Source: Flavipsychrobacter sp. (lineage in GTDB: Bacteria; Bacteroidota; Bacteroidia; Chitinophagales; Chitinophagaceae). Taken from it: 64,000 bases of DNA. The stretch's first letter is position 1. Every line of letters starts with the position of its first letter. A model generated the notes under the pieces. It was not told the DNA's origin. It saw nothing but the letters and a program-made list of their open reading frames with translations, and did not search any database. The stretch covers positions 25,630 to 89,629 of the forward strand of contig JAJNBJ010000017.1 in NCBI GenBank assembly GCA_021155965.1, given 5' to 3'. Made by a program: the position numbers and the translations under genes. Below are positions 7,184 to 64,000 of this stretch, in pieces.

Positions 7184-8713
7184 TCACCCTAAAACCCTCT
7201 TGATCCTTTTAATAGTCTCTTCCTTCCCTATCACCTCAGCAATAGTAAATACTCCCGGGCCATATTTGCCGCCAACCAGCATTACACGCAGAGGCAGCAT
7301 TACATCGCCTTTTTTGAGGCCATATTTGGCAAGTAGTTCAGTAAAATTTGTTTCGATGGGTATGGCTGTCCAATCGAGCAGGTTTTGTATTTCGGTGAGC
7401 CAGTTGGTGAAGAATTGCTGTTTCTGGTCGTTCCATTTGTCTTTTATGGCGGCTTCTTCTTTTATTTCAGGTGTGGCAAAGAAGAAGTGGCCTTGTGACC
7501 AGAAATCGGGCAGTAGCGTGCAGCGGTCTTTGATGAGACTTACGACCAGTCGTAAGTCGTAAGTCGTAAGTCGTGAGTCTGCGGGTTGGCTTTTTAGTTC
7601 TTCTTCTATGTAAGGTTTTGCCAATTCAGCCAGTTTTGCATCATCTGTGTGCTGAATGTATTGGTGGTTGAACCATTTGGCTTTTTCGAAATCGAATTTG
7701 GCGCCGCCTTTGTGCACGCGCTCTATGGAGAATGCTTTTACCAGTTCTTCCAACGAGAATATTTCCTGTTCGGTACCGCTGTTCCAGCCCAGCATGGCCA
7801 GCATGTTCACAAAAGCCTGCGGCAGGAAACCCATTTCCTTAAAACCTTTGGTTGTTTCTCCTGTCTTTGGGTCTGTCCAGTTCATAGCAAATACAGGGAA
7901 GCCGAGTCGGTCGCCGTCGCGCTTGCTGAGCTTGCCATTGCCATCGGGTTTCAGTATCAGCGGCAGGTGCGCCCATTGGGGCATATGGCTTTTCCAGCCA
8001 AGGTATTCCCAAAGCAATACATGCACAGGTGCGCTAGGCAGCCACTCTTCCCCACGGAAGGCGTGGGTTATCTTCATCAGGTAATCGTCTACCACCACGG
8101 CAAGGTGGTAGGTTGGCATTCCATCAGCTTTCAACAATACCTTATCATCTACCAGTGAACTATCGAATGATATTTCACCGCGTATCATATCGGTGAGTTT
8201 CACCGTATGGTTCTCCGGCATTTTTATTCGCACCACGTATGGAGTACCGGAGGCTATCAATTCATTCACTCTCTCTGTAGGTAGTGTAAGCGAGTTGAGC
8301 ATCAGTCCGCGAGTGCGGTGATCGTACTGGGCAGGGGTATGCTCATCAATGCGCTGGTCTTTGCGCATTTTTTCAATATCCTCTGTTGTATCAAATGCTA
8401 CGTATGCGTGGCCTGATTCCAGTAGTTTTTCAGCGTATTCCCTGTACAATTGTTTACGTTCGCTCTGGCGGTAGGGAGCATACGGGCCGCCCTTTTCTGC
8501 ACTCTCATCAGGCTCTAGTCCGCACCAGCGCAGGCAATCCATAATGTATTGTTCAGCACCTTCAACATAACGGCTCTGGTCGGTATCTTCTATACGTAAA
8601 ATGAACTCACCTCCATGGGCGCGGGCAAACAGATAATTATATAAAACAGTGCGCACACCACCCAGGTGCAAACCTCCCGTAGGACTAGGCGCAAAACGAA
8701 CACGAACTTTCAT
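7184..8713 (-). CDS. gltX: Glutamate--tRNA ligase
   Basis: MKVRVRFAPSPTGGLHLGGVRT (HIGH region), GKLSKRDGD (KMSKS-like). Confidence 0.95.
   Translation of the reverse strand: MKVRVRFAPSPTGGLHLGGVRTVLYNYLFARAHGGEFILRIEDTDQSRYVEGAEQYIMDCLRWCGLEPDESAEKGGPYAPYRQSERKQLYREYAEKLLESGHAYVAFDTTEDIEKMRKDQRIDEHTPAQYDHRTRGLMLNSLTLPTERVNELIASGTPYVVRIKMPENHTVKLTDMIRGEISFDSSLVDDKVLLKADGMPTYHLAVVVDDYLMKITHAFRGEEWLPSAPVHVLLWEYLGWKSHMPQWAHLPLILKPDGNGKLSKRDGDRLGFPVFAMNWTDPKTGETTKGFKEMGFLPQAFVNMLAMLGWNSGTEQEIFSLEELVKAFSIERVHKGGAKFDFEKAKWFNHQYIQHTDDAKLAELAKPYIEEELKSQPADSRLTTYDLRLVVSLIKDRCTLLPDFWSQGHFFFATPEIKEEAAIKDKWNDQKQQFFTNWLTEIQNLLDWTAIPIETNFTELLAKYGLKKGDVMLPLRVMLVGGKYGPGVFTIAEVIGKEETIKRIKRVLG
7537..7579. repeat. 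Heptanucleotide tandem repeat (GTCGTAA x3 + GTCGTGA) plus 10-bp inverted repeat, inside gltX
   Basis: gacttacgac-ca-gtcgtaagtcgtaagtcgtaagtcgtgagtc read directly. Confidence 0.9.
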
Positions 8714-8770: not shown

Positions 8771-10156
8771 TTAATGGTGGTGGTGGTGTGCATCGTGTGC
8801 GCTGCCCAGCTTGAAGAACTCTTCTTCGCCTATTTCTTTTTCTGTGATGTTCAATGTTGTTTCGAGGTAGCTGAACAGCTTGTTGTATAACAAACGGCGG
8901 TATGTCTCATCTATCATCTTTTCATCCTTTGCTATTTTAGCCATGTAGCCGTCCATCCATGGTGCTTCATCTTCCTGATCTGGGCCAAGACCGAAGTATT
9001 GCAGCACGCGGGTTTTAATGTCTTTGTTCACTTCTTCAACACTCACTTCTATACCCTGTTCAGCCATAAGCTTATCAGAAATAAGCTGCCAACGGAGCTG
9101 ATGCTCAAAACCACCAAACTCATGCTCAACAGCTTCTGCCGACTTTGGTTTTTCGCCACCTTCGCGCATCCAGCGTTTCAGGAAAGCTACGGGCAGGTGG
9201 ATGTTGGTGCCGTGCACCAGCAACTCGTACATTTCATTCTGCAGGCGCTCGTTGGTGATGCGCTCGAATTCACGGCCCAGTTCAGCTTTCAGTTTCTCCC
9301 TGAAGTCTGCTTCGTCTTTTACTTCCTGGTTCTGGAATACCTGCGCATACAGCTCAGGGCCCAGTTCCTGTGGTATCAGTAAACCAACTTTAGTTATGGT
9401 CAGTTTGTAGTGTTGTTCTCCTTCCTCAGGATTCGCCTTCAGCGGGTCTTTCATGAACTTTGGCAGTTCTTCTGCAGTGCATACATCAGCCGGGCGGAAA
9501 ACTATAGTGTCTTCCGGCTTTTTGCCCATTACCATTTCCTTTAGTTTGGCAGGCATTTTATCCAATACCTCGGTATCTTCTATTTTGCCGGTGCCTTCAG
9601 CCACATTGCCGTTAGCATCGCACTGCTCATAAGTAGCATAGATAAGGTCTTCCTTATTGGTAACTTCTGTTTGCGACTCTACCTTACCGTAGCGGCGCCT
9701 GATGCGCTCTACTTCATCATCCATCATCCTATCGCTAACAACAATTTTGTAGCGGGTGAGGCTGGCTTTATTTTTAATGGGATCTATTTCAAATTCCGGC
9801 TTCAGGCCCACTTCGAAAGCAAAGTCAACATCGGCAGGGGAATTCATATCAAGTTGTGTCCTGGCAGCATCCGGCATTATCATTGGCTGTGCGAATATGG
9901 ACAGCTTCTCGTCCTTCATATAGTCTTCCAGCTTTTTGCCGGCAGCACGTATCACCTCTTCGTTGAAGATAGACTGGCCATACATTTTGCGCAGCATACC
10001 CGATGGTACCATACCCTTGCGGAAACCCGGAACATTTGCCGTTTTAGCATATTGTTTCAGTGTTTTCTCGAAAGAAGGCAGGTAGTCGCCTTTTTCCAGT
10101 TTCACTATTAGTTTATCATGAAGTGTGCCTATACTTTCACGTGTTACCGTTGCCAT
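8771..10156 (-). CDS. tig: Trigger factor
   Basis: N-terminal MATVTRESIGTLHDKLIVKL.. with GFRKGMVP motif (PGFRxGxxP); His-rich C-terminus; start chosen downstream of the promoter-like TATCTTTG. Confidence 0.85.
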   Translation of the reverse strand: MATVTRESIGTLHDKLIVKLEKGDYLPSFEKTLKQYAKTANVPGFRKGMVPSGMLRKMYGQSIFNEEVIRAAGKKLEDYMKDEKLSIFAQPMIMPDAARTQLDMNSPADVDFAFEVGLKPEFEIDPIKNKASLTRYKIVVSDRMMDDEVERIRRRYGKVESQTEVTNKEDLIYATYEQCDANGNVAEGTGKIEDTEVLDKMPAKLKEMVMGKKPEDTIVFRPADVCTAEELPKFMKDPLKANPEEGEQHYKLTITKVGLLIPQELGPELYAQVFQNQEVKDEADFREKLKAELGREFERITNERLQNEMYELLVHGTNIHLPVAFLKRWMREGGEKPKSAEAVEHEFGGFEHQLRWQLISDKLMAEQGIEVSVEEVNKDIKTRVLQYFGLGPDQEDEAPWMDGYMAKIAKDEKMIDETYRRLLYNKLFSYLETTLNITEKEIGEEEFFKLGSAHDAHHHHH

Positions 10157-10185
10157 AGTATTATCTATTTTTTTATTAAGGGGTG

Positions 10186-10193
10186 CAAAGATA
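10186..10193 (-). promoter_or_regulatory. Bacteroidota -7 element TATCTTTG upstream of tig
   Basis: Exact TAnnTTTG 30 nt upstream of the ATG; -33 element not clear. Confidence 0.5.
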
Positions 10194-10263: not shown

Positions 10264-10492
10264 GGGTATAATTTTCGAAAGTGCCCATTTGCGGTTAATA
10301 ATTTTTTGTCGTGATGCCTGTAATGCTGTGTGGGCAATGTTTATGTGTTTTATTTTCATGTCTAAAAGGGTATAAAAGCGACTAAGAAACGGGCTAAAAT
10401 GACTAAAAAACGGCATTTTGGGTATAATTTTTTAAAGTCGGCACGCCTGCATCGGCAGATAAATAAGTTGTCAGTCATTCAAAGAACTTGCC
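10264..10492 (-). repeat. Dispersed two-copy element, copy 1
   Basis: Shares AATTATACCC boundaries, TTTTATACCC, ACATGAAAnnAAAACACATAAAC, AAAAATTATTAACCGCAAA, CGAAAATTATACCC and CAAAGAACTTGCC with 63697-63906. Confidence 0.75.
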
Positions 10493-10554
10493 CCAATTTT
10501 TCTGGAGCTGAGTAAAGTTCATTATTGCCATTGTTTCTGCAAAATTTAAAAACC

Positions 10555-10602
10555 GTCACGGTACTGAAACTGTACCGTGACGGTACAGTTTCAGTACCGT
10601 CA
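10555..10602. repeat. 43-bp perfect palindrome (10558-10600) with two nested alternative hairpins
   Basis: GTCACGGTAC-TGAAACT-GTACCGTGAC and TGACGGTAC-AGTTTCA-GTACCGTCA, overlapping ACGGTACTGAAACTGTACCGT-G-ACGGTACAGTTTCAGTACCGT. Confidence 0.95.
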
Positions 10603-10663
10603 TGGAAATTATTCTCCGTTATAGGCGCGGATCTGAGGGAATTTAGTACTGATATTTTTAGGC

Positions 10664-10840
10664 CTATTTCGCAAATCTACCTGAACCTTCAGCAATATTT
10701 AGCTGAATGCTCAAGCTCGCCCTTCCTAACTGATCCTTCACATACCTAGGAATTGCTATGTCCGTCTTTAGCAAGCGGTATATTTTCTGATTCTGTGCGA
10801 AAGCTTTTTTGTAAACATCAAGATTTTCGAATGTGAACAT
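10664..10840 (-). pseudogene. C-terminally truncated four-helix-bundle protein (S23/IVP family)
   Basis: MFTFENLDVYKKAFAQNQKIYRLLKTDIAIPRYVKDQLGRASLSIQLNIAEGSGRFAK* ends at the conserved IAEGSGR motif; full-length members continue about 60 aa. Confidence 0.6.
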
Positions 10841-10869: not shown

Positions 10870-10954
10870 AACAAAAAAGAAACAGAAACAGTGCGAGGGA
10901 ACAAGAAAGAGCAGAAACCCTACGCACTCTTTCTGCGCACTGTTTCTGCTCTTG
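10870..10954 (-). terminator. Long nested hairpin with T-rich tail downstream of tRNA-Leu
   Basis: CAGAAACAGTGCG (10936-10948, minus) pairs perfectly with CGCACTGTTTCTG (10883-10895, minus), inner GAAAGAG/CTCTTTC pairing, then TTTCTTTTTT. Confidence 0.5.
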
Positions 10955-11036
10955 TGCGGGCGGAGGGACTCGAACCCCCAAGCCGCGAAGCACTAGATCC
11001 TAAGTCTAGCGTGTCTACCAATTTCACCACGCCCGC
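10955..11036 (-). tRNA. tRNA-Leu (anticodon TAG)
   Basis: GCGGGCG...CGCCCGCA acceptor pairing, anticodon arm CTAGA-CTTAGGA-TCTAG, T arm GGGGG-TTCGAGT-CCCTC; no encoded CCA. Confidence 0.92.
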
Positions 11037-63696: not shown

Positions 63697-63906
63697 GGGT
63701 ATAATTTTCGAAAAGTGCGTGTTTGCGGTTAATAATTTTTATCGGGTGTGGGTAAAATGCGCTTTGGGGTTGGTTTATGTGTTTTGCTTTCATGTATAAA
63801 GGGGTATAAAAGGGTATAAAAAGGTATATTCCAGGTATAAATCTCAATACAAGAGGTATAAAAAGGTATAAAAAGGGTATAATTTCCAGTAAACAAAGAA
63901 CTTGCC
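63697..63906 (-). repeat. Dispersed two-copy element, copy 2, with (GG)GTATAAAA tandem array
   Basis: Same ordered blocks as 10264-10492. Confidence 0.75.
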
Positions 63907-64000
63907 TCGTCCTGAAATTGCTTTACACTTTGTGAGATAATCCTGTTTTTACTTTACAGGTGTTTTTGTTAGTCCTGAAAGGTGCTTACACCTTTGAAAA

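Follow-up and report, generated by a model that had tools for sequence, protein, structure and literature searches.

Dispersed gene-less repeats as probable derivatives of a multicopy element with a single TerS-like gene in one Chitinophagaceae genus

Most dispersed bacterial repeats have been traced to transposases, whereas the gene tied to the repeats described here encodes a packaging-type DNA-recognition protein without a recognisable catalytic part. Certain PICIs encode a TerS of their own, through which packaging is redirected. Compared with phage satellites such as PICI, PLE and P4, the present element has one gene only and is without integrase, capsid-interference and replication genes. 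The pac region that a TerS protein recognises lies near or within the protein's own gene, and a ring of HTHs, each binding weakly, has been proposed to select bent DNA (PMC4737164; review PMC9611059); the pac region of SPP1 holds three sets of direct repeats spanning promoters and the start of terS (PMC4737164). The gene described here resembles such systems in its N-terminal HTH, its size, its homology to TerL-adjacent TerS and the repeat array beside it, but is multicopy and unaccompanied by TerL or other phage genes.

Repeats with a linked gene are also known from REP/REPIN sequences and their RAYT (TnpA-REP; PMC3116915, PMC8266576), in which, as here, dozens of non-coding, species-specific copies accompany a low-copy, family-linked gene. 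The element's gene is, however, not a Y1 transposase, and its unit measures 130–450 bp as against the 20–40-bp palindrome of REP. RAYT/IS200 was rejected as the mover: the genome gave three Y1 matches at two loci, one degenerate and the other an IS200-type gene divided between contigs, neither linked to intact gene copies. MITEs and other miniature elements derived from insertion sequences are similar in that copies without the gene are more numerous than those with it and retain both ends, but the gene lost here is a TerS-like HTH gene. The Porphyromonas gingivalis MITE with a minisatellite (PMC4596501) is likewise a Bacteroidota repeat element with a tandem repeat; it differs in that no TerS-like gene is mentioned in the portion of its description considered here. 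A literature search found no description of such a repeat in Chitinophagaceae.

Two copies lie in the window, by which we mean the whole 64,000-nt stretch of DNA analysed. Their parts, together with two neighbouring features outside the element, are as follows.

10184..10193, minus strand: -7 motif of tig's own promoter (TATCTTTGCA), outside the element; identical in motif and place in several relatives without the element
10264..10389, minus strand: conserved core of copy 1 (TTTTATACCC ... AAAATTATACCC); profile R1, 87.4 bits, E 3e-26 in the window
10390..10429, minus strand: 5' repeat units of copy 1 (AATTATACCC, CGTTTTTTAGTCA, CGTTTCTTAGTCG); TTTTTAG-type likeness to the units 3' of the C5 gene of relative G002
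10478..10489, minus strand: boxA-like AAGTTCTTTGAA in the type II leader of copy 1; recurs upstream of many copies, function putative
10511..10520, minus strand: inferred promoter-like GAACTTTACT of copy 1; placed relative to the palindrome like GAACTTTG upstream of intact genes
10553..10605, minus strand: left palindromes of copy 1 (CCATGACGGTACTGAAACTGTACCGTCACGG and TACAGTTTCAGTACCGTGACGG); sole match in the window, 0 in 100 shuffles
63697..63822, minus strand: conserved core of copy 2; profile R1, 93.6 bits, E 4e-28 in the window
63823..63902, minus strand: remnant of a type I leader (AGTTCTTTGTTTACTGGAAATTATACCC) with extra TATACC units, copy 2; corresponds to type I leaders found in other copies
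63903..64000, minus strand: insertion sequence end, presumably IS3-type, cut by the contig end and outside the element; its 98 nt recur in near-identical form at a dozen contig ends

The original prediction described these loci as an intergenic element present in two copies. All of the blocks it listed occur in order on the minus strand at 10492-10264 and 63906-63697, the spacing from ACATAAAC to TTATTAACCGC is identical in both copies (a 63-nt match each by pattern search), and the 1-nt length difference before CGAAAATTATACCC is real. A block GGCAAGTTCTTTG reported as shared is present at both loci but is partly a coincidence: in copy 2 the insertion sequence end (63903-64000) abuts AGTTCTTTG and supplies the GGCA, while in copy 1 GGGGCAAGTTCTTTGAATGACTG is part of a different leader from that of copy 2. 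The blocks given for copy 1 exist but understate its extent, as the copy begins near 10605 with a palindrome. The proposal that this is a DNA element rather than a gene was borne out, with the MK.KHIN frame interrupted by a stop in 25 of the 41 full copies, directly after ACATAA in 20 of these; a small protein gene was rejected on the same count, and no Pfam match was obtained.

The figure of two copies was an artefact of reading a single window. A profile built from 41 full copies (alignment A1, 135 columns, mean pairwise identity 74%) gave about 74 matches to the core of about 126 nt in the 4.25-Mb genome at E<=2e-4, that is, approximately one per 57 kb on both strands, and a relaxed pattern search returned 29 matches, its reversed control 7. 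The draft assembly has its contigs broken at repeats, and 15 copies abut an insertion sequence end or a contig end. Core length was near-constant over the 41 copies. The core begins with a palindrome, one half of which is the inverse of the core's right end, and the TATACC units are in 10-bp phase (AATTATACCC TTTTATACCC CTTTATACC). Some copies are truncated or carry an internal deletion; half copies considered as an autonomous parent (C16:121447, C5:97414, C34, C36 and C15) proved to be such deletions or truncations, without a transposase. The sequence CCGCCGTAGCTTTTTTCAGCGAAGGAGGGC recurs beside the right end of the core in many 3' flanks (e.g., L016, L028 and L026) and is apparently another dispersed repeat.

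Upstream of the core, a leader was co-oriented with it in 57 of the 59 copies with at least 250 nt of upstream sequence, the two leaderless copies being 3' fragments. A palindrome leader of the type CCTTGACGGTACTGTTTCAGTACCGTCAAGG followed by a promoter-like sequence was found in 36 of these 59, and a type I leader with the sigma54 -24/-12 consensus TGGYAY-N5-TTGC in 21, where chance would give about 0.001 per copy, the copies being related and not independent. The genome encodes three sigma54 proteins, and no sigma54 leader was seen before an intact gene. Genome-wide, the palindrome had 87 matches (0 in the reversed control), about half of them not near a TATACC core, so that leader and 3' part also occur separately. 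A boxA-like sequence, (A)AGTTCTTTG or AGCTCTTTGA, recurs in both leader types; together with the promoter-like sequences, this recurrence makes transcription of gene-less copies plausible. Arrays of GACTTATGACTTACGAC of variable length lie between the leader and the TATACC units in several gene-less copies (L022, L007, L014 and other loci).

In three of the 59 copies (C37:132701, C16:203241 and C6:53578), an intact HTH gene of 166–171 aa lies between the palindrome leader and the repeats; in the remaining 56, the gap between leader and core is too short for the gene, or no gene was seen. A weak profile match in relative G008 also falls just 3' of a 200-aa HTH gene. Two paralogues in this genome (C40 and C14) have a palindrome as in other copies and differ in their 3' repeats, which consist of TGCGCAAA and of GACTTATGACTTACGAC with TGCGCAAA, respectively. 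Despite differing sequences and 3' repeats, each of the five TerS-like genes that were examined in this genome has the palindrome. The HTH portion has matches to Terminase_5 and to related Pfam models; a near-full-length match was obtained to PHROG 4151, annotated as 'DNA binding protein' (E 3e-22). By tblastn, the closest functional homologues were the TerS of Porphyromonas phage 007a (E 3e-14) and of Bacteroides phage p00 (E 3e-10), at about 30–33% identity and directly adjoining TerL in both phages; the 2ao9 phage protein matched weakly in sequence (E 0.045). An AF2 model of low confidence (pLDDT 60) places three long helices after the HTH and had no significant Foldseek match in the PDB. 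In some species, TerS-like proteins carry tails of up to several hundred residues. Neither TerL, portal nor capsid genes were found among the ORFs within about 1.5 kb of the gene copies in this genome, which have chromosomal genes around them, and short patterns retrieved no relatives of the gene from viral contigs.

The gene family was present at 1–14 copies per genome in 34 of the 35 genomes of the genus and absent from all 26 genomes from outside the genus; the relatives named in records are all uncultured Bacteroidetes or Chitinophagaceae MAGs. Copies cluster by species in the tree (11 in G010, five in G029, three in this genome and two in G002) with 98–100% support. The eleven G010 copies are about 90–92% identical, have unrelated flanks and mostly end in TGCGCAAA units. 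Upstream of TerS-like genes in that species (L192, L195 and L191), we observed a further unit of about 120 bp (GTACTTTTTTCGCTGTAGAAAAAAAGTACGAGC...GATCAAGCGCATAG...), both tandem and dispersed. TATACC arrays, with 4–11 units per 3' region, follow seven of the eight genes, from five species, whose recognition helix is of the VSQ(K/R)T type, whereas other paralogues have 0–2 units. Matches from a DNA-only search in G002, G008 and G020 coincide with VSQ(K/R)T-type genes. Since these genes occupy one region of the tree, the association with TATACC does not represent many independent events. The exception, the VSQ-type C5 gene of G002, is followed by TTTAGAAG and TTTTTAGCAA units and no TATACC, and the same units occur in two gene-less G002 copies. 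Gene-bearing and gene-less copies in G002 share a leader (GATATNCACAA...TACCTTTGTGCCG) and a core (GTAGCGCATTTCAGCC) of their own, which indicates that the architecture recurs in a second species with other sequences.

The locus of copy 1 allowed one syntenic comparison. In four relatives (G012, G017, G027 and G033), tig is directly preceded by tRNA-Leu, while in this genome the tig start at 10156 is about 800 bp from tRNA-Leu (10954-11036), an interval that contains copy 1 and a truncated 23S_rRNA_IVP gene. No TATACC array was found before tig in the 22 relatives examined (21 regions readable). With the tig promoter motif located between the element and tig, and relatives without the array, copy 1 is, judged by this comparison, an insertion upstream of tig's own promoter and not a leader of the gene. 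The truncated gene (10664-10840, minus strand) encodes a 23S rRNA-intervening-sequence protein (PF05635, first 53 of 106 positions) and lies in the interval that the relatives lack.

The best explanation, which we regard as probable, is that these features are derivatives, without the gene, of a multicopy element that carries a single gene and is confined to one Chitinophagaceae genus. The complete element would comprise a leader with long palindrome and promoter, one TerS-type HTH gene, phased TATACC repeats and the core of about 126 nt. Its protein would most likely oligomerise and bind the repeats arrayed at its own gene's 3' end. As TATACC units in 10-bp phase would suit a TerS ring, we take the 3' array as a likely candidate binding site. 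The leader palindrome is likewise a likely candidate operator of the TerS-like protein, which would probably regulate its own gene through it. Gene-less copies, having retained leader and repeats, would then spread in trans. We infer mobility from the dispersal of the copies, their species-specific amplification and the comparison at tig. For the element, we found neither a transposase nor a recombinase nor a target-site duplication, and no empty/filled site pair from one species was seen; movement without a transposase could involve a host recombinase, or insertion after packaging by a phage or gene transfer agent. More tentatively, the element may represent a new class of mobile element, with a TerS-like protein as its sole gene product matched to a 3' repeat array, a large gene-less progeny and spread without a self-encoded transposase. 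It would offer one system in which to test how a transposase-less element spreads, and the pairing of recognition-helix class with repeat class amounts to a natural experiment on site choice by TerS-type HTHs.

Among other explanations, the copies might be chromosome-wide binding sites of a domesticated TerS-like protein with a role in nucleoid organisation or global regulation, maintained by selection, with homogenisation through gene conversion in place of selfish spread. Near-universal presence of the gene in the genus, intergenic placement and a core of near-constant length at 74% mean identity over 41 copies would all suit such sites. Nonetheless, whole leaders with their promoters have been copied along with the sites, the tig site is not conserved between species, gene copy number ranges from 1 to 14, and some copies are truncated or internally deleted, so we consider this explanation unlikely. 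Less likely again is a minimal phage-satellite-like element, whose TerS-like protein would mark the repeats for packaging by a helper phage or gene transfer agent. Chromosomal insertion is not explained by packaging alone, no phage genes were seen beside the copies and short patterns found no relatives in viral contigs; this is set against closest functional homologues that are TerS proteins adjoining TerL in Porphyromonas phages and Bacteroides phage p00, and a gene-adjacent repeat array like that of SPP1's pac region (PMC4737164).

A transcribed regulatory RNA or shared cis-regulatory leader with boxA antitermination, as first proposed for these loci, now seems very improbable. Promoter-like leaders, the boxA-like AGTTCTTTG and the three sigma54 genes of the genome speak for it, but RNAalifold found no conserved pairs among the 41 copies, and the only Rfam match in the window was to the tRNA, none to the element. 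The distance of about 106 nt from element to start codon is real at both loci; its equality, previously read as meaningful, is due to chance, the range over all copies extending from overlap to several hundred nt. Across 72 copies, the next downstream gene was co-oriented in 42 and opposite in 30 at widely varying distance, counts that are approximate as ORFs were picked mechanically. A leader of tig or of the aminotransferase gene was therefore rejected on mixed gene orientation and variable distance, and also because tig keeps its own promoter motif downstream of the element and relatives have no array there. The weakest candidate, a classical MITE from a DDE insertion sequence such as the neighbouring IS3-type one, can draw on the 10-bp inverted ends of the core (GGGTATAATT...AATTATACCC, one half of the core-start palindrome being the inverse of the right end) and on IS3-type copies abutting many cores, but is scarcely credible with leaders outside those inverted ends, insertion sequence ends that do not match the core ends, no target duplication established and no parent transposase gene flanked by such ends found.

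The insertion sequence abutting copy 2, which we take to be of the IS3 type by resemblance, is represented at 63903-64000 by one of its ends, the 98 nt being near-identical at a dozen contig ends. Other contig ends carry TGTCTAGTCCTGAAAAAACC...ATGGAAAGACAGAAAGG, with a similar terminal repeat and then an ORF start. The contig-end repeat was accordingly dismissed as a parent of the element, as this other end and ORF start mark an IS3-type insertion sequence sitting at the repeats. It recurs in or beside TATACC repeats in this genome and is apparently a repeat-targeting insertion sequence. Elsewhere in the window, three tandem ACTTACG units lie inside the glutamyl-tRNA synthetase ORF (7550-7578, minus strand; peptide RLTTYDLRLV). 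The unit is that of the GACTTATGACTTACGAC repeats of the C14 paralogue, which gives the impression of a repeat set in frame within an essential gene.
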